Positions 2,698 through 18,797 of a stretch of 64,000 nt of DNA are shown piece after piece. Position numbers and translations under genes: made by a program. This DNA comes from Halichondria panicea (Eukaryota; Porifera; Demospongiae; Suberitida; Halichondriidae): assembly GCF_963675165.1 (NCBI RefSeq), contig NC_087377.1, positions 2,340,824-2,404,823 on the forward strand. Reading direction: 5' to 3'. How positions within the stretch are numbered: the stretch's first letter is position 1; each line of letters opens with the position of its first letter. The notes below the pieces were generated by a model. The model saw only the letters and a list, made by a program, of their open reading frames with translations. It was not told the DNA's origin and searched no databases.

Positions 2698-3338
2698 CCG
2701 GTGTCATAAAATTTTGGGCCCCCGGGCCTAGAATGTTAACAGTTTAGGCCCCCCAGGGGGTCCAAAATGTTAACATTCTGGGCCCCCACTGTGAGATTAG
2801 GCCCCCCTCTTCTGCTTTTCTGCACGATCGTACGATAGAAGGAAGTCAAAGAGATATAGGTAAGGTTAGCTCTATTAGTTGACAAAGCATCAAAGAGACT
2901 GCATGCATGCAAAGACTCTGTATCAAACTAGCAAAAATGTTTGCATTATTATTCTATCATGGAATTATAAAAGTGAAGGAAGATTTACCTTTCAAGTTAC
3001 TCATGCTTTACCTATAAGGCCACTCCAAGTGATACTCTGGTTTCTGGTCCTGAAGTTTTTCTAATTGCAAGCGGGCGGGCGGCTTTTCTCATTATGTCAT
3101 TATCAATTTCACCTTATGAATCTCATTATTTTTCAAATGAATATCATTATCACACTATTTTGTACCGCATGGACCATTCTGCGCATGCGCAGTAGAAATA
3201 ATGAGATAGAAATCCAATAATGAGATAGAAATCCAAGAATAAAATCTGATGCGGGCGGTGGACCAGAAACCAGAGTATTACTTGGAGTGGCCTAAGAGTT
3301 AAATGCTTTGATGCAGCTCTGCAATGTTGGATCTGCCT
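2698..3338. mobile_element. Left half of a 1 kb TIR element (copy 1), split by later insertions
   Basis: Begins CCGGTGTCATAAAATTTTGG and runs parallel to the intact copy at 17772-18797 up to GGATCTGCCT. The right half resumes at 13438. Between them sits the 10.1 kb composite; a 275 bp MITE also sits inside this half. Differences from copy 2 show that the copies are not recent. Confidence 0.8.
3018..3292. mobile_element. 275 bp MITE, 3 bp TAA target duplication, PIF/Harbinger-like
   Basis: Terminal repeats of about 34 bp begin GGCCACTCCAAGTGATACTC. TAA flanks both sides (3015-3017, 3293-3295). Copy 2 of the host element (about 18115) has one uninterrupted CTATAAGAGTT, the empty site. A 3 bp TWA duplication is typical of PIF/Harbinger; the superfamily call is inference. 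Confidence 0.8.
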
Positions 3339-3342
3339 ATAA

Positions 3343-4282
3343 CCCTTTCCTTGCCATTCGTGAAATCTGGAACAGGAGCGTCTTTAGGTCGATCAATTAG
3401 TGTGGATCCGGCCTCACCACGCCTCCAAGTCATTCTATTAGTCTAGATCCGGCTAGCAATTCTAGCTGGGACTCCCAGTTCTAGCTCCTTTTGTTTAGCG
3501 TGTCAGAGACTGGGAGAAGATGATTGGCACTCCCTGGCTCCTTTGGATGTACAGCTGTCCAGATCCCTAGAACATACCCTCCATTCTGACGAGTTATCAG
3601 TGCATAGGGTGCTTACTAGATTCTTGCCAGCCAGTACAGTTCAAGCTACACACAGCACCGCTCAACTATTCTCTACCCCATTATCTAGCTAAATCTGGTC
3701 CAACTAGACAGCAGACACAGCTAGTTAATTCAGTAAAGCCAGGGGTAGCCCTACTTCTACGGTTGTTCAGTACCCACGGTAACAATTCCTCTGGGCTGGG
3801 CTAACTAGTTGAGCCACGCCTCCCAATTCTCAAGGCTAGGTACATGTCTCTGTCTAGCTGCTTCTTCAGCTTCTTGCTCAGTTTTGTGGCTTAGAGAAAG
3901 GCCAGCTACTCAGGGGGAAGAGTCCAGATGAAAGTCTGGCAGCCAGGTGACGTCCAAACGGTCAGTTATTCTTTCCACCAACTTTTTAATCTAGTCTAGT
4001 CCTGCTTGCACTGCTACTACTACTGCTGCCTACTGCTGCTACTCTTCCTAGCTAGTCAAAGGTTTCTTTTTTTTTTTTTTTTTTTTTATAACTACATATG
4101 CACAAAGAGACATCAAAGCTTACATCAAAGGACACAGATTTTTAGCCTACTTGACTGATAAGGCGGTTACCTAGACTACAGTTTGTTTGTCAGGGAGGAG
4201 CTCACATACAACTTCATCTAATTCATCATAACGATTCCTTACCCATTGTTGTAATTTCTACAACAGATTGCCAAGGAAAGAG
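3343..4282. repeat. Unit A, left copy (940 bp) with piggyBac-like TIRs
   Basis: Left end CCCTTTCCTTGCCA, right end TTGCCAAGGAAAGAG: an imperfect inverted repeat of about 13 bp. It is flanked by ATAA on both sides. It has no open frame of note, and ends with a T-tract (about 4067-4087). Length equals the right copy at 12498-13437 exactly. Confidence 0.8.
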
Positions 4283-4448
4283 ATAATTACAACAGAATTT
4301 ACAACAGAGTGGGTTAGGGCCTCTCATATACAACTGAATTCTTTATCACAATTTTATTAATCATTGAAATAATACCCCTTTCCTCCCCTCTCCAAGGCCA
4401 ATTTAGACCAGGAGAGTACCATCTAACAAAAATCAGTCACACAGCACA

Positions 4449-7400
4449 TTAGCTAGCACATGTGTGTCCGATAACAGAGTGTCCTTTGCATATTCTTATG
4501 CGACAGTGGGGACATGCCATTGCAGTGTGTTGCTGCTCTCTGCTAGGGATCTTCTCCCGAACACACACTTGACAGCGCCCACGAGACACTCCGACACTAT
4601 TTGCACTCACACGTGCGCCCTGTGATGGGGGGAAAACGATATTTAGACTGGCCAGACCTGAGGCACTGCTACGAGTACGTGGCACACCCAATAGACTATG
4701 AATTAGTTCCAATCGAAACCCTTTCAAAGGCATGGCCTTTGAACCCACCCTGACACAGTTGTGCCTGTATAGAATGTATGCATTATTCACACTAACGTCA
4801 AGGAATTGAAAGAAAATCCTGAACCAATACCGCCGACACTTTCTATCGTACCCATAGGTTTTCCTCATACGCCCTGTATTGTCAACTCCTCCCATGTACA
4901 TGTTATATGCAGGGAGACAGGGGGGGACACTCTGAGAGCGTAGGGTACCGTCTTTGTGCATTCGCATTACAGTGTGGGGCATATGGTCAGGGAACACATT
5001 TGTTGCAAAGGACACAACTCTACGGTCGTTAAACATAGAGTAAGAAATATCACCAACAGTCATGGACGTATAGTCACCTTTGTCGAGTACCACATCCTTA
5101 AGACTTGCTGGGAAACCAGCAGCATTCTTCAAAATTGTGCCGACAGTAAACACATTTTGCTTAGCCAACTCTTCTATCAATGGACCGGACGTGTAAAAGT
5201 TGTCCATGTACACAACATGCTGATGACCATAAAAAGGAGTGAGTAAACGATGGACTACATTTTTCACAAGCCCTTTCACAGCTATCTTTTTCCCAGAGGA
5301 ATCGGTGAGCTTACCACTGTATACATCAAACACACAGAGATACCCACAGCATGAACATGAGCAGCACCATACCTTGAACCCCAGTTTAACAGGCTTCTTG
5401 GGCATATGAATTTTCCCGCTTTTACGACCCTTGTACTTTATCATCATCTCATCAACGGAAAGCTCCTGACTGGGATTATACCTCATGAAGTAGTTGGCTT
5501 TAAGAGTCTCTAAAACAGTTTTTAGCTTGCTAGTTACCTTACGTGCATCAGTGATGGACGTATTGTCCTCACAGTGCAGATACCGCCATAAACTTTGGAA
5601 CCTTTTGAGCGACATTACATTGCTCACACATTGTACACCTAAAAGGGGATCCTTGGACCAGTAGTCCGTAATTTCAGGGAGCCTATGAATGCCCATCTCT
5701 AGTACAATCCCCAAAAACACCCACAATTCGGCACTGTTTGTAGCTGACCAACCCTTAGCACCACACTGCCTAGCGTACAGGTTGGTCTGTTCGGCTATGT
5801 ACTCACACAAACTATCGGGCCAAAGTAACTTAACAAAATCTAGGCATGGAGTTACAGACGGATCAAGTTGATCGACAGGACCGACCACACCGCCAAAGAC
5901 GGGGTATCTTCCTGTGGACTTAGCTTTTTGGAGTCCATTGTCCCTCGCCAGCTTCCTCCGTTTGGGAGTCGGAGCCATGCCATCGACCATTTCGTCATCA
6001 TCCTCCACTGCAGCATCTGCACGGAAACAAAGCATGAATATCATTAGAGTACCACAAGAGTGCTCGCCAGTGCAGGTGGGGGACAGGCTATGAATGTCAT
6101 TATGTGGGCGTACCACACGCTAGTGGTGCTATGAATATCATTAACTACTGGGGGGGTTAGGGCGCATAGGTACAGTACAGCAGAGGAAAAGGCTCGTCCA
6201 CATCAAAGGCTCGTGGGAGGAGCCCAACAAACCACAACAACCATGAATGTCATTAGTGGGCGTACCACACGCTAGTGGTGCTATGAATATCATTAACTAC
6301 TGGGGGGGGGGGGGGGTTAGGGCGCATAGGTACAGTACAGCAGAGGAAAAGGCTCGTCCCCATCAAAGGCTCGTGGGAGGATCCCAACAAACCACAACAA
6401 CCATGAATGTCATTACGTGGGCGTACCGCACGCTAGTGGTGCTATGAATATAATTAACTACTGGGGGGGGGGGGGGTTAGGGCACATAGGTACAGTACAG
6501 CAGAGGAAAAGGCTCGTCCCCATCAAAGGCTCGTGGGAGGATCCCAACAAACCACAACAACCATGAATGTCATTATGTGGGCGTACCGCACGCTAGTGGT
6601 GCTATGAATATCATTAACTACTGGGGGGGGGGGGTTAGGGCACATAGGTACAGTACAGCAGAGGAAAAGGCTCGTCCACATCAAAGGCTCGTGGGAGGAG
6701 CCCAACAAACCACAACAACCATGAATGTCATTACGTGGGTGTACCACACGCTAGTGGTGCTATGAATATCATTAACAACTGGGGGGTGGGGTTAGGGCAC
6801 ATAGGTACAGTACAGCAGAGGAAAAGGCTCGTCCCCATCAAAGGCTCGTGGGAGGAGCCCAACAAACCACAACAACCATGAATGTCATTATGTGGGCGTA
6901 CCACACGCTAGTGGTGCTATGAATATCATTAACTACTGGGGGGGGGGGGGGGGGGGTTAGGGCACATAGGTACAGTACAGCAGAGGAAAAGGCTCGTCCA
7001 CATCAAAGGCTCGTGGGAGGAGCCCAACAAACCACAACAACCATGAATGTCATTACGTGGGCGTACCGCACGCTAGTGGTGCTATGAATATCATTAACTA
7101 CTGGGGGGGGGGGGGTTAGGGCACATAGGTACAGTACAGCAGAGGAAAAGGCTCGTCCACATCAAAGGCTCGTGGGAGGAGCCCAACAAACCACAACAAC
7201 CATGAATGTCATTACGTGGGTGTACCACACGCTAGTGGTGCTATGAATATCATTAACAACTGGGGGGTGGGGTTAGGGCACATAGGTACAGTACAGCAGA
7301 GGAAAAGGCTCGTCCCCATCAAAGGCTCGTGGGAGGAGCCCAACAAACCACAACAACCATGAATGTCATTACGTGGGTGTACCACACGCTAGTGGTGCTA

Positions 7401-8367
7401 TGAATATCATTAACTACTGGGGGGGGGGGGGTTAGGGCACATAGGTACAGTACAGCAGAGGAAAAGGCTCGTCCACATCAAAGGCTCGTGGGAGGAGCCC
7501 AACAAACCACAACAACCATGAATGTCATTACGTGGGCGTACCACACGCTAGTGGTGCTATGAATATCATTAACTACTGGGGGGGGGGGGGTTAGGGCACA
7601 TAGGTACAGTACAGCAGAGGAAAAGGCTCGTCCCCATCAAAGGCTCGTGGGAGGAGCCCAACAAACCACAACAACCATGAATGTCATTACGTGGGCGTAC
7701 CACACGCTAGTGGTGCTATGAATATCATTAACTACTGGGGGGGGGGGGGGTTAGGGCACATAGGTACAGTACAGCAGAGGAAAAGGCTCGTCCACATCAA
7801 AGGCTCGTGGGAGGAGCCCAACAAACCACAACAACCATGAATGTCATTATGTGGGCGTACCGCACGCTAGTGGTGCTATGAATATAATTAACTACTGGGG
7901 GGGGTTAGGGCACATAGGTACAGTACAGCAGAGGAAAAGGCTCGTCCACATCAAAGGCTCGTGGGAGGAGCCCAACAAACCACAACAACCATGAATATCA
8001 ATATGTGTGCGTAATGCACGCGTGTGGTGCTATGAATATCATTAACAACTGGGGGTTAGGGTACAGTACAGTACTGCAGTCAAGGCGACGCCAAAAAGAG
8101 GCTCACACAATGTAGGAGGAGCCACAAAAGGCATGCACATGACGCCTCCGCCAAAAAGAGGCCACATATCGTTAGGGCATCACAATGCTGCCTCCCCAAC
8201 CACTATTTAATGGTGCAATGACACAAACCTGAATCACTCTCCAGATCTGTCTCAAAATCGTCATCACTGGGCTCGTCATGGTCATAACAGACTTCCTGGT
8301 CCTCCTCAAGCTCTCTGACAGTGTGCTCAAGCTCGCTGACAGTGTCAAGGAGTCCAATCAGCTCCAT
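4449..8367 (-). CDS. PiggyBac-family transposase, two exons, copy 1 (568 aa)
   Basis: DDE transposase of the piggyBac/PGBD family (DDE_Tnp_1_7), which cuts and pastes DNA at 4 bp TTAA-type sites. Exon 1 is 8229-8367: the start codon at 8367 gives MELIGLLDTVSELEHTVREL and an acidic stretch, ending GATTCAG before gtttgtgt. Exon 2 is 6016-4449, after the acceptor tttccgtgcag. The junction is phase 1 and the total of 1707 nt is in frame. Exon 2 alone stays open to 6116, but that extension reads into intron minisatellite and is probably not coding. Likely catalytic Asp are in LSVDEMMIKYKGR, YMDNFYTSGPL and GGVDNTGRMR. The C-terminus is a Cys/His-rich zinc-binding domain (CQVC ... CPHC ... CKGH). 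The frame is fully open, so the enzyme may be active or only recently silenced. The 2.2 kb intron is mostly minisatellite. Confidence 0.9.
6088..8040. repeat. 160 bp-unit minisatellite with poly-G and GGGTTAGGG, about 12 units (copy 1)
   Basis: Each unit carries GAATGTCATTACGTGGGCGT, CACGCTAGTGGTGCTATGAA, a G-run of 7 to 19, then TTAGGGCACATAGG and GCTCGTGGGAGGAGCC. It lies within the transposase intron; the G-rich strand is the one complementary to the transcript. Confidence 0.9.
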
Positions 8368-8555
8368 TTGGATTCAAAAGTTTTGAAAAATAATTACAAC
8401 AGAATTTACAACAGAGTGGGTTAGGGCCTCTCATATACAACTGAATTCTTTATCACAATTTTATTAATCATTGAAATAATACCCCTTTCCTCCCCTCTCC
8501 AAGGCCAATTTAGACCAGGAGAGTACCATCTAACAAAAATCAGTCACACAGCACA

Positions 8556-11500
8556 TTAGCTAGCACATGTGTGTCCGATAACAGAGTGTCCTTTGCATAT
8601 TCTTATGCGACAGTGGGGACATGCCATTGCAGTGTGTTGCTGCTCTCTGCTAGGGATCTTCTCCCGAACACACACTTGACAGCGCCCACGAGACACTCCG
8701 ACACTATTTGCACTCACACGTGCGCCCTGTGATGGGGGGAAAACGATATTTAGACTGGCCAGACCTGAGGCACTGCTACGAGTACGTGGCACACCCAATA
8801 GACTATGAATTAGTTCCAATCGAAACCCTTTCAAAGGCATGGCCTTTGAACCCACCCTGACACAGTTGTGCCTGTATAGAATGTATGCATTATTCACACT
8901 AACGTCAAGGAATTGAAAGAAAATCCTGAACCAATACCGCCGACACTTTCTATCGTACCCATAGGTTTTCCTCATACGCCCTGTATTGTCAACTCCTCCC
9001 ATGTACATGTTATATGCAGGGAGACAGGGGGGGACACTCTGAGAGCGTAGGGTACCGTCTTTGTGCATTCGCATTACAGTGTGGGGCATATGGTCAGGGA
9101 ACACATTTGTTGCAAAGGACACAACTCTACGGTCGTTAAACATAGAGTAAGAAATATCACCAACAGTCATGGACGTATAGTCACCTTTGTCGAGTACCAC
9201 ATCCTTAAGACTTGCTGGGAAACCAGCAGCATTCTTCAAAATTGTGCCGACAGTAAACACATTTTGCTTAGCCAACTCTTCTATCAATGGACCGGACGTG
9301 TAAAAGTTGTCCATGTACACAACATGCTGATGACCATAAAAAGGAGTGAGTAAACGATGGACTACATTTTTCACAAGCCCTTTCACAGCTATCTTTTTCC
9401 CAGAGGAATCGGTGAGCTTACCACTGTATACATCAAACACACAGAGATACCCACAGCATGAACATGAGCAGCACCATACCTTGAACCCCAGTTTAACAGG
9501 CTTCTTGGGCATATGAATTTTCCCGCTTTTACGACCCTTGTACTTTATCATCATCTCATCAACGGAAAGCTCCTGACTGGGATTATACCTCATGAAGTAG
9601 TTGGCTTTAAGAGTCTCTAAAACAGTTTTTAGCTTGCTAGTTACCTTACGTGCATCAGTGATGGACGTATTGTCCTCACAGTGCAGATACCGCCATAAAC
9701 TTTGGAACCTTTTGAGCGACATTACATTGCTCACACATTGTACACCTAAAAGGGGATCCTTGGACCAGTAGTCCGTAATTTCAGGGAGCCTATGAATGCC
9801 CATCTCTAGTACAATCCCCAAAAACACCCACAATTCGGCACTGTTTGTAGCTGACCAACCCTTAGCACCACACTGCCTAGCGTACAGGTTGGTCTGTTCG
9901 GCTATGTACTCACACAAACTATCGGGCCAAAGTAACTTAACAAAATCTAGGCATGGAGTTACAGACGGATCAAGTTGATCGACAGGACCGACCACACCGC
10001 CAAAGACGGGGTATCTTCCTGTGGACTTAGCTTTTTGGAGTCCATTGTCCCTCGCCAGCTTCCTCCGTTTGGGAGTCGGAGCCATGCCATCGACCATTTC
10101 GTCATCATCCTCCACTGCAGCATCTGCACGGAAACAAAGCATGAATATCATTAGAGTACCACAAGAGTGCTCGCCAGTGCAGGTGGGGGACAGGCTATGA
10201 ATGTCATTATGTGGGCGTACCACACGCTAGTGGTGCTATGAATATCATTAACTACTGGGGGGGTTAGGGCGCATAGGTACAGTACAGCAGAGGAAAAGGC
10301 TCGTCCACATCAAAGGCTCGTGGGAGGAGCCCAACAAACCACAACAACCATGAATGTCATTAGTGGGCGTACCACACGCTAGTGGTGCTATGAATATCAT
10401 TAACTACTGGGGGGGGGGGGGGTTAGGGCGCATAGGTACAGTACAGCAGAGGAAAAGGCTCGTCCCCATCAAAGGCTCGTGGGAGGATCCCAACAAACCA
10501 CAACAACCATGAATGTCATTACGTGGGCGTACCGCACGCTAGTGGTGCTATGAATATAATTAACTACTGGGGGGGGGGGGGTTAGGGCACATAGGTACAG
10601 TACAGCAGAGGAAAAGGCTCGTCCCCATCAAAGGCTCGTGGGAGGATCCCAACAAACCACAACAACCATGAATGTCATTATGTGGGCGTACCGCACGCTA
10701 GTGGTGCTATGAATATCATTAACTACTGGGGGGGGGGGGTTAGGGCACATAGGTACAGTACAGCAGAGGAAAAGGCTCGTCCACATCAAAGGCTCGTGGG
10801 AGGAGCCCAACAAACCACAACAACCATGAATGTCATTACGTGGGTGTACCACACGCTAGTGGTGCTATGAATATCATTAACAACTGGGGGGTGGGGTTAG
10901 GGCACATAGGTACAGTACAGCAGAGGAAAAGGCTCGTCCCCATCAAAGGCTCGTGGGAGGAGCCCAACAAACCACAACAACCATGAATGTCATTATGTGG
11001 GCGTACCACACGCTAGTGGTGCTATGAATATCATTAACTACTGGGGGGGGGGGGGGGGGGGTTAGGGCACATAGGTACAGTACAGCAGAGGAAAAGGCTC
11101 GTCCACATCAAAGGCTCGTGGGAGGAGCCCAACAAACCACAACAACCATGAATGTCATTACGTGGGCGTACCGCACGCTAGTGGTGCTATGAATATCATT
11201 AACTACTGGGGGGGGGGGGGTTAGGGCACATAGGTACAGTACAGCAGAGGAAAAGGCTCGTCCACATCAAAGGCTCGTGGGAGGAGCCCAACAAACCACA
11301 ACAACCATGAATGTCATTACGTGGGTGTACCACACGCTAGTGGTGCTATGAATATCATTAACAACTGGGGGGTGGGGTTAGGGCACATAGGTACAGTACA
11401 GCAGAGGAAAAGGCTCGTCCCCATCAAAGGCTCGTGGGAGGAGCCCAACAAACCACAACAACCATGAATGTCATTACGTGGGTGTACCACACGCTAGTGG

Positions 11501-12471
11501 TGCTATGAATATCATTAACTACTGGGGGGGGGGGGTTAGGGCACATAGGTACAGTACAGCAGAGGAAAAGGCTCGTCCACATCAAAGGCTCGTGGGAGGA
11601 GCCCAACAAACCACAACAACCATGAATGTCATTACGTGGGCGTACCACACGCTAGTGGTGCTATGAATATCATTAACTACTGGGGGGGGGGGGGTTAGGG
11701 CACATAGGTACAGTACAGCAGAGGAAAAGGCTCGTCCCCATCAAAGGCTCGTGGGAGGAGCCCAACAAACCACAACAACCATGAATGTCATTACGTGGGC
11801 GTACCACACGCTAGTGGTGCTATGAATATCATTAACTACTGGGGGGGGGGGGGGTTAGGGCACATAGGTACAGTACAGCAGAGGAAAAGGCTCGTCCACA
11901 TCAAAGGCTCGTGGGAGGAGCCCAACAAACCACAACAACCATGAATGTCATTATGTGGGCGTACCGCACGCTAGTGGTGCTATGAATATAATTAACTACT
12001 GGGGGGGGTTAGGGCACATAGGTACAGTACAGCAGAGGAAAAGGCTCGTCCACATCAAAGGCTCGTGGGAGGAGCCCAACAAACCACAACAACCATGAAT
12101 ATCAATATGTGTGCGTAATGCACGCGTGTGGTGCTATGAATATCATTAACAACTGGGGGTTAGGGTACAGTACAGTACTGCAGTCAAGGCGACGCCAAAA
12201 AGAGGCTCACACAATGTAGGAGGAGCCACAAAAGGCATGCACATGACGCCTCCGCCAAAAAGAGGCCACATATCGTTAGGGCATCACAATGCTGCCTCCC
12301 CAACCACTATTTAATGGTGCAATGACACAAACCTGAATCACTCTCCAGATCTGTCTCAAAATCGTCATCACTGGGCTCGTCATGGTCATAACAGACTTCC
12401 TGGTCCTCCTCAAGCTCTCTGACAGTGTGCTCAAGCTCGCTGACAGTGTCAAGGAGTCCAATCAGCTCCAT
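8556..12471 (-). CDS. PiggyBac-family transposase, two exons, copy 2 (568 aa)
   Basis: Same two-exon gene as in copy 1: exon 1 at 12333-12471, exon 2 at 8556-10123, phase 1 junction. The exon 2 protein is identical residue for residue to copy 1 across the whole reading frame. Two identical coding copies in tandem with drift only in G-runs mean either a very recent duplication or a false duplication in the assembly. Function and motifs are as in copy 1. Confidence 0.88.
10195..12144. repeat. 160 bp-unit poly-G minisatellite (copy 2)
   Basis: Unit for unit the same order of variants as 6088-8040 (including the two GGGGGGTGGGG units), apart from G-run lengths. Confidence 0.9.
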
Positions 12472-12497
12472 TTGGATTCAAAAGTTTTGAAAAATAA

Positions 12498-13437
12498 CCC
12501 TTTCCTTGCCATTCGTGAAATCTGGAACAGGAGCGTCTTTAGGTCGATCAATTAGTGTGGATCCGGCCTCACCACGCCTCCAAGTCATTCTATTAGTCTA
12601 GATCCGGCTAGCAATTCTAGCTGGGACTCCCAGTTCTAGCTCCTTTTGTTTAGCGTGTCAGAGACTGGGAGAAGATGATTGGCACTCCCTGGCTCCTTTG
12701 GATGTACAGCTGTCCAGATCCCTAGAACATACCCTCCATTCTGACGAGTTATCAGTGCATAGGGTGCTTACTAGATTCTTGCCAGCCAGTACAGTTCAAG
12801 CTACACACAGCACCGCTCAACTATTCTCTACCCCATTATCTAGCTAAATCTGGTCCAACTAGACAGCAGACACAGCTAGTTAATTCAGTAAAGCCAGGGG
12901 TAGCCCTACTTCTACGGTTGTTCAGTACCCACGGTAACAATTCCTCTGGGCTGGGCTAACTAGTTGAGCCACGCCTCCCAATTCTCAAGGCTAGGTACAT
13001 GTCTCTGTCTAGCTGCTTCTTCAGCTTCTTGCTCAGTTTTGTGGCTTAGAGAAAGGCCAGCTACTCAGGGGGAAGAGTCCAGATGAAAGTCTGGCAGCCA
13101 GGTGACGTCCAAACGGTCAGTTATTCTTTCCACCAACTTTTTAATCTAGTCTAGTCCTGCTTGCACTGCTACTACTACTGCTGCCTACTGCTGCTACTCT
13201 TCCTAGCTAGTCAAAGGTTTCTTTTTTTTTTTTTTTTTTTTTATAACTACATATGCACAAAGAGACATCAAAGCTTACATCAAAGGACACAGATTTTTAG
13301 CCTACTTGACTGATAAGGCGGTTACCTAGACTACAGTTTGTTTGTCAGGGAGGAGCTCACATACAACTTCATCTAATTCATCATAACGATTCCTTACCCA
13401 TTGTTGTAATTTCTACAACAGATTGCCAAGGAAAGAG
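12498..13437. repeat. Unit A, right copy (940 bp)
   Basis: Same orientation, length and ends as 3343-4282; left flank ATAA, right flank GTAA. Confidence 0.8.
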
Positions 13438-13717
13438 GTAAGACAATCGATGTTGTTGCATAGCTATCGCCATATTTGCAACTTCGTGCTTACTTTCTTA
13501 GTCAAATTTCAGGACAAAAAAGTATAAAACACACAATTTCAGTGCAAAGACAACAATTCATATCTTCCTCCTATGTTTTCCTATATAGAAGATGTAAATT
13601 GTTGTGGGGGTGCTCTAATAGCATCACTGGCTCAGCTCTCAAGTAATGTGGAATCATAGATAGAAGTCAAGAGAGAAACTGTTGTATCATGGTGGAATCA
13701 CAATAGCAGTTTCCTTT
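13438..13717. mobile_element. Right part of the split 1 kb TIR element (copy 1), truncated
   Basis: GTAAGACAATCGATGTTGTT onward matches 18162-18448. Similarity ends after GCAGTTTCCTTT, so the right TIR of this copy is missing. Confidence 0.75.
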
Positions 13718-17771: not shown

Positions 17772-18797
17772 CCGGTGTCATAAAATTTTGGGCCCCCCCC
17801 TGTTTAGCCCACCCGGCCTAGAATTTTAAAATTTTGGACCCCCGGGCCTAAAATGTTACCAGGGGGTCCAAACTGTTAACATTCTAGGCCCCCCACTGTG
17901 AAATAGGCCCCCCTCTTCTGCTATCCTTTTCTGCATGATAGAACAAAGTCAAAGAGATATTATAATTATGGTAAGGTTAGCTCTATTAGTTGACAAAGCA
18001 TCAAAGAGACGCATGCATGCAAAGACTCTGTATCAAAGTAGCAAAAATATTCGCATTATTATTCTATCATGGAATTCAAAGTGTTACCTTTCAAGTTACT
18101 CATGCTTTACCTATAAGAGTTAAATGCTTTGATGCAGCTCTGCAATGTTGGATCTGCCTGTAAGACAATCGATGTTGTTGCATAGCTATCACCATAATTA
18201 TTTGCAACTTCGTGCTTACTTTCTTAGTCAAATTTCAGGACAAAAAAGTATAAAACATACAATTTCAGTGCAAATTAAGACAACAATTCATATCTTCCTC
18301 CATGTTTTCCTATACATAGAAGATGTAAATTGTTGTGGGGATGCTCCAATAGCATCACTGGCTCAGCTCTCAAGTAATGTGGAATCACAGATAGAAGTCA
18401 AGAGAGAAACTGTTGTATCATGGTGGAATCACAATAGCAGTTTCCTTTCGGGACAAGGGTAATATTGGAAAGTCCGGACCAATTCGGGACAGTTGGCACC
18501 TATGTGCTTCGTGCTGCATGAGGCCTGATTCATAGAATGACATGGTGCAGTGTGATGGCTGTGAGACCAGTGGTATACTACTGTACATGCATGAAATGTG
18601 TGTGTGTGAGGAGAGCTGCATTCAGTAACTGGCACTGCATAAACTGTGAAGACCATAGAAGACTGTATTGGTGTATTTTGAGAATGCACTGTCACATAAT
18701 GTTACCGCTGTTGCGCTGTTAATGGGGGGCCTAAAATGTTAAAATTCTAGGCCCGGGGGGGCCCAATCTCATGGGGCCTAAAATTTTATGACACCGG
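17772..18797. mobile_element. Intact 1 kb TIR element (copy 2), empty-site reference
   Basis: Ends CCGGTGTCATAAAATTTTGG and the inverse ending GACACCGG. Subterminal GGCCCCC blocks are also inverted. It encodes no transposase, only a PHD-finger relic near the right end. No clear target duplication is visible, so the superfamily is open. Confidence 0.75.
18503..18650 (+). pseudogene. PHD zinc-finger relic within the TIR element
   Basis: Frames combined read CASC, then MVQCDGCET, then YYCTCMKC and finally NWHCINC. This is the spacing of a C4HC3 PHD finger, which reads histone tails. A stop (after MRPDS) and a two-base insertion break it. It may be captured host coding DNA or the remains of a transposase-linked PHD domain. 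Confidence 0.5.

Follow-up and report, generated by a model that had tools for sequence, protein, structure and literature searches.

The window, a stretch of 64,000 nucleotides (nt) from the sponge Halichondria panicea (contig NC_087377.1, positions 2,340,824 to 2,404,823, forward strand), contains an array of repeated units at its positions 3343-13437. Two copies of a short unit, A, enclose two copies of a longer unit, B. We consider it probable that this array is a composite DNA transposon with an A-B-A plan, in which A provides the ends and B the enzyme, acting by the mechanism proposed below. Judged by its sequence, the transposase belongs to the piggyBac superfamily, and the element would be a variant within it. 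The layout appears to be the known plan of the KolobokP elements, now in a second superfamily. A preliminary description of the window had proposed the A-B-B-A plan with a piggyBac-type transposase in B. All its coordinates and junction letters were right (ATAA at 3339, 4283, 8390 and 12494, and GTAA at 13438), and the composite plan is supported. The features are the following.

3339..3342: left flank, ATAA; three empty paralogs read GTAA at this position
3343..4282, + strand: A1, non-coding 940-bp unit with imperfect inverted ends, similar to a long terminal direct repeat (LTDR)
4283..4286: ATAA, A-B junction; 23 A-B junctions are listed genome-wide
4287..8389, - strand: B1, internal region of 4103 nt, carrying the transposase gene; no inverted ends detected
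4449..6016, - strand: B1 transposase exon 2, piggyBac DDE domain PF13843; splice site predicted from the DNA
6017..8228, - strand: B1 transposase intron; contains a G-run minisatellite with repeats of about 158 bp
8229..8367, - strand: B1 transposase exon 1, acidic; frame predicted from the DNA
8390..8393: single ATAA, B-B junction, the proposed scar of a precisely excised A
8394..12493, - strand: B2, second internal region; 4100 nt
8556..10123, - strand: B2 transposase exon 2; offsets equal those of B1
12333..12471, - strand: B2 transposase exon 1; offsets from the end equal those of B1
12494..12497: ATAA, B-A junction
12498..13437, + strand: A2, identical to A1
13438..13441: right flank, GTAA, matching the empty paralogs
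18114..18287, + strand: paralogous empty site, CCT-GTAA-GACAATCG, element-free; also found at loci L062 and L064

A1 and A2 are identical at 940/940 positions. B1 and B2 show 0 mismatches, and three single-G gaps in G runs are their only difference. Unit A has imperfect terminal inverted repeats (TIRs), CCCTTTCCTTG.. and CTCTTTCCTTG.., with a local score of 12 (shuffle p 0.0015). Its left end is CCC and its right end CTC; piggyBac termini begin with CCC at both ends. No TIRs were detectable in B (local score 5, shuffle p 0.85). The earlier claim that A carries inverted ends and B the transposase is borne out. Unit A contains no ATG-initiated open reading frame (ORF) of 40 amino acids or more. 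It has the features of a miniature inverted-repeat transposable element (MITE), being short, non-coding and numerous (148 left ends in a pattern search with up to 3 mismatches), with TIRs and a target-site duplication (TSD). The A units had also been likened to the flanking insertion sequences of a bacterial composite transposon. Two like mobile units do bracket a passenger here. However, the brackets of bacterial composite transposons carry the transposase, and here its location is reversed: the passenger B encodes it and the brackets are non-coding. An LTR (long terminal repeat) retrotransposon was rejected as the identity of the array. There is no reverse transcriptase between the repeats, and the sole long coding frame, in B, is that of a DDE transposase.

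The transposase gene consists of two predicted exons around the minisatellite intron, with limits set by splice signals. The exon-1 ATG lies 22 nt inside the B edge, and an in-frame TGA is found 9 nt upstream of it. So little room is left before the edge that the promoter should be outside B; A probably supplies it. The protein matches PF13843 (DDE_Tnp_1_7; E 7.4e-69), the only Pfam match at E up to 0.001, and no Kolobok transposase domain was matched. It is homologous to piggyBac (1.3e-25) and piggyBat (3.2e-34) (structures 6x67 and 9c0f). Three aspartate motifs align, LSVDEMM, YMDNFYTS and MGGVD, at what we take to be the three catalytic positions of piggyBac. With residue numbers counted from the printed alignment, Y439 and N440 of piggyBac are kept. 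Y283 is replaced by histidine and R275 by lysine; the aligned piggyBat residues are tyrosine and arginine. A passage of PMC7351741 describes Y283 of piggyBac as stacking on the target. These two substitutions are candidate causes of the relaxed target choice described below.

Apart from the transposase frame and one antisense frame overlapping it, B holds no ORF of at least 90 amino acids. No endonuclease gene was seen in B, where short ORFs (50-87 amino acids) were not searched against families. A genome domain search gave 122 matches; 36 of them are stop-free and tie at the score of the window copies. The exon-2 stretch shows 0 nt differences in nine further B units. Compared with a relative in the same genome, the rate at synonymous sites (dS) is 1.23 and that at non-synonymous sites (dN) is 0.20. 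The family is real and young, and it looks recently active.

The survey covered the 131-Mb genome assembly (39 contigs). Among 51 B starts, 23 follow A, 19 follow B and 9 follow other DNA. The B-end search listed 52 matches, of which 48 were used; the other four were weak (3 mismatches), and three of them resemble another repeat. These 48 ends stand before B (19), A (18) or other DNA (11). All 60 internal junctions listed (23 A-B, 19 B-B and 18 B-A) are direct and carry ATAA. B is present at about 26 loci (25 grouped, plus L076). A adjoins it at 17 of them, on both sides at ten: A-B-A (2), A-B-B-A (2, including the window), A-B-A-B-A (2), A-B4-A (1) and mixed arrays (3), such as A-B-B-B-A-B-B-B-A. 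At six further loci A was seen to the left of B but not to the right; this group includes two multi-unit loci and C12:6197379, whose right end is unmapped. A single locus reads B-A, with no A on its left. The forms A alone, B alone, A-B-A and A-B-B-A are all represented. In one respect the preliminary description needs correction: B also occurs without A at nine loci.

The repeated sequence itself raises the possibility of an assembly artefact, with collapsed or chimeric joins of a dispersed repeat. Identical A copies and B copies that differ only in G runs are a repeat type prone to misassembly. Nevertheless, many loci show precisely these junctions, with lengths that are specific to each locus, and the outer flanks of two arrays match empty paralogs. 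We regard an artefact as very improbable.

The target site was analyzed on 142 A copies (140 listed and two others), 129 with a right end (7 taken as A-B) and 13 without. After setting aside 33 array copies, 96 solo A with both flanks remained. Equal 4-bp flanks occur in 59/96, compared with a shuffle mean of 19 and a maximum of 31 in 1,000. These 59 TSDs consist of ATAA/TTAT (34), ATAG/CTAT (8), ATAT (6), TTAA (4) and others (7). The central TA is present in 96 left and 95 right flanks of the 96, counts biased upward because the search patterns contained TA. Without a flank condition, the TA core is found in 38/38 left flanks (36 distinct copies) and 54/55 right flanks. NTAN tetramers counted over 50.5 kb of the window served as background; against it, equal TSDs are 2.9-fold richer in ATAA/TTAT and 1.15-fold richer in TTAA. 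The strict TTAA target of piggyBac holds for 4/59 equal TSDs. The preliminary description had suggested a relaxed RTAA target. It is indeed relaxed, and the 96 flank pairs replace RTAA with NTAN. A duplication of TA only, with one carried base per side, was also considered. It was dropped, given the equal 4-bp TSDs and a whole 4-mer as newcomer at empty sites.

Empty sites were searched locally (20 and 23 joined flanks) and genome-wide (19 and 16), in overlapping sets. The genome-wide searches scored 40 candidates each, and a missing match in them carries no information. The joined flanks of the window array match the three paralogs with GTAA listed above. For a second A-B-B-A array, C1:10157386, the site reads ATAC in one paralog. 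It means that each array occupies one target. The earlier proposal of one target site for the entire 10.1 kb is supported by this result.

That proposal also held that the 10.1 kb moved as one piece. Such one-unit transposition may have taken place, and the same flanks would be expected if the array had grown from a landed solo A. In this second case, only A would move between loci, an A-B circle would recombine into a solo A, unequal crossover would enlarge the array, and the 10.1 kb would never have moved whole. Outer flanks should then be unchanged, as observed. The lengths of B are locus-specific, and the solo A with both flanks (96) far exceed the loci where A adjoins B (17). A circle model is discussed for KolobokP in a section of PMC9587614. 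On the other side, no circle was seen, and a solo B with NTAN flanks needs further steps. The data do not separate the two readings; we hold movement of A only to be unlikely.

The flanks that are not equal gave further information. They comprise 36 pairs, with one TCCC pair set aside. ATAA stands on one side in 28/36 (shuffle mean fraction 0.58; 0/5,000 as high). Point mutation is a poor explanation, because the A copies are so close to their consensus: 42 aligned A (one copy twice) differ from it by 0 to 1.5%, and 33 by 0.22% or less. Nine unequal insertions have usable empty paralogs, six solo A (L003, L012, L019, L023, L030 and L059) and three composites (the window, the C1:10157386 array and L075). 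ATAA is the newcomer in 8/9, four times on the left side and four times on the right. At L059, ATAA was added next to an equal TTAT. The element thus seems to take four bases of its donor site along. In piggyBac, the opening of the hairpin leaves a 4-nt overhang from the donor flank, as a passage of PMC7351741 describes. This overhang is invisible there because donor and target are both TTAA. Within arrays, the inner A copies are flanked by ATAA left and right. Arrays could therefore be the donors of the ATAA newcomers, and an ATAA-flanked solo A could serve too. Donor-flap retention is not reported in the available part of PMC12324416. These donor-memory flanks are the freshest part of the results.

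The junctions inside the arrays point to the way in which these grew. B-B junctions are present 19 times, at 9 loci. The 140 listed left flanks include 0 A-A junctions, even though 7 B units are enclosed by A copies on both sides. This difference argues that A excises and B does not. A B-B junction requires an exact cut on both sides of A, and seamless piggyBac excision would supply such cuts. So, precise excision of A is the best reading of these junctions. The lengths of B were compared at 11 multi-B loci, using 34 units longer than 2 kb and leaving out shorter ones. They vary more between loci than within them, and only 16/10,000 shuffles were equally tight. Being locus-specific, they indicate that the arrays grew locally. 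The A copies add little to this. At five array loci with alignable A, copies within a locus differ by 0 or 1 substitution, with equal lengths in four loci and 944 versus 941 in the fifth. Array A copies from different loci are 0-3 substitutions apart, so likeness within a locus is weak evidence by itself.

The same junctions bear on a further explanation, in which A and B are independent transposons sharing one transposase. B would have non-TIR ends, and the two would insert next to each other at a shared ATAA, much as TTAA sites are shared by Pokey and mPok. In its favor are the solo B flanked by NTAN (L066, TTAA/TTAA; L069, ATAA/ATAA; and the B-B locus L071, ATAA/ATAA). However, independent insertion does not account for the lack of A-A joins beside the B units held between two A. 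Likewise, all the listed internal junctions are ATAA while the outer flanks of A vary widely, no inverted joins are present among the B-start and B-end matches listed, and no TIR was detected in B. We judge it quite improbable, less so than an artefact.

For the composite, which we prefer, the following mechanism could explain the forms observed. A would be a short non-coding element supplying the transposase-binding ends. B would be the internal region, with a two-exon piggyBac-superfamily transposase and without inverted ends. The transposase would cut the ends of A, around a TA-centered 4-bp NTAN site, and it could work on the outermost ends of the composite (A...A) or on the two ends of a single A. 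A-B-A-B-A would arise when A copies exchange unequally. If an inner A were excised precisely and one ATAA stayed behind, B-B would result, and hence the A-B-B-A of the window. The loss of outer A copies would result in A-B, B-A and solo B. The excised end would carry four flanking donor bases, sometimes kept on one side of the new site. An ATAA from an array junction would thus mark new insertions.

Several observations weigh against this reading. Of the roughly 26 loci, nine show no A: one is B-B and eight hold a single B, with the right end unmapped in three of the eight. Two of these A-less loci, L069 and L071, share the exon 2 of the arrays, and B may be mobile by itself. Four diverged solo B with mapped ends (L066, L067, L068 and L076) are all without A. 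No excision was observed. The newcomer at L030 differs from ATAA, and the one paralog of this locus has GCAG. None of the donor sites was traced. The orientation of ATAA in equal TSDs gives no support to an overhang-guided choice of target (21 ATAA versus 13 TTAT, p 0.23), and this idea was rejected. Some empty sites have one paralog (L012 and the C1:10157386 array) or one clean paralog (L059). The paralogs of L069 vary at the joint, and the relatives of L078 span its site with too many indels to call. Finally, the layout is known from the assembly and not from long reads.

Other observations concern particular loci or copies. A is missing unevenly: 6 loci (one unmapped) lack it to the right of B, and 1 locus lacks it to the left. 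A passage of PMC9587614 gives lopsided counts for KolobokP-4N1 as well, 40 to 6. The right joint of the solo B at L069:3433-3445 holds three bases more than two empty paralogs, and a third paralog varies; these bases are possibly an excision footprint. Eight long A-ended copies (L058-L065) were considered as autonomous A with their own transposase. This was rejected: they are A units split by foreign insertions, with no B match. Two A copies, C1:2937575 (+) and C1:2980205 (-), share 13 flanking bases on the left and 6 on the right. As the two are oppositely oriented, this suggests an inverted segmental duplication. The intron minisatellite occupies about 6045-8020 of the window, with G runs of varying length in its units, and it is part of the length variation between loci. 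At L147, a relative of the transposase with 69% amino acid identity has a similar minisatellite upstream. It is a candidate sister family, covered here up to but not including its ends. A high-copy repeat of about 284 bp (L147:2356-2640) lies in its 3' flank, with 96-100% identity in 38/41 of the matches listed. Other clusters of piggyBac-domain matches lie at C7 5.9-7.2 Mb and C1 0.1-1.0 Mb, many with in-frame stops. A palindromic MITE-like element of about 280 bp (about 3014-3294 of the window) ends about 45 bp left of the array, and its arm also matches L016 and L030. An Rfam scan of 3300-8450 gave no match at gathering scores.

The closest known system is KolobokP (Kojima and Bao 2022, PMC9587614). 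The sections of that paper on the element describe a plan of two LTDRs around an internal region (LTDR-INT-LTDR), solo LTDRs, multimers, INT-INT joins, loss of a single LTDR and solo INT. The plan with its solo, multimer and INT-INT forms is present here too. One ATAA is kept at B-B, versus the one TATA that those sections give for the INT-INT of KolobokP-1_MeMe. However, KolobokP is described there with a Kolobok transposase and a His-Me homing endonuclease. The present transposase belongs to the piggyBac superfamily, and multimers are common although no endonuclease gene was seen among the longer frames of B. Likewise, the single-LTDR losses described there deleted 1-5 flanking bases on one side. 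The preliminary description knew of no piggyBac element with this plan. None was found in the literature searched, with most subscription papers and Repbase reports outside its scope, and the available part of PMC3212995 contains no such piggyBac composite. The plan as such is not new, having been printed for the Kolobok superfamily.

The array shares with piggyBac and piggyBat the transposase domain, the three catalytic aspartate motifs, the CCC left end, a TA-centered 4-bp TSD and, as proposed here, seamless excision. It differs in having ends and transposase on separate units and in its few TTAA sites. Pokey and mPok of Daphnia, from the parts of PMC3849761 that treat them, are also of the piggyBac superfamily, with some non-TTAA sites with a TA core, MITE partners and tandem copies at shared flanks. 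Pokey breaks the strict TTAA rule in about 10%; TTAA makes up 88% there, and those parts contain no A-B-A composite. PiggyMac, which acts on the internal eliminated sequences (IES) of Paramecium, is a piggyBac-derived enzyme with TA-centered 4-base 5' overhangs; it is described in passages of PMC3077386 as domesticated, for excision only, with no composite. Both Pokey and PiggyMac are precedents for the TA core.

A wider reading can be offered tentatively, with slightly less than even confidence. A piggyBac lineage may have independently evolved an LTR-like composite that has no homing endonuclease, in which A holds the promoter and the ends and B holds the enzyme. It would keep the donor flap, so that the histories of its jumps could be reconstructed. 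If a homing endonuclease is truly absent, such multimers need none. The relaxed target would expose in natural copies the 4-nt donor flap of piggyBac, normally hidden by TTAA. The family is a natural variant for asking which residues set TTAA specificity. If the donor-flap reading is true, each unequal flank records the site that the element left.

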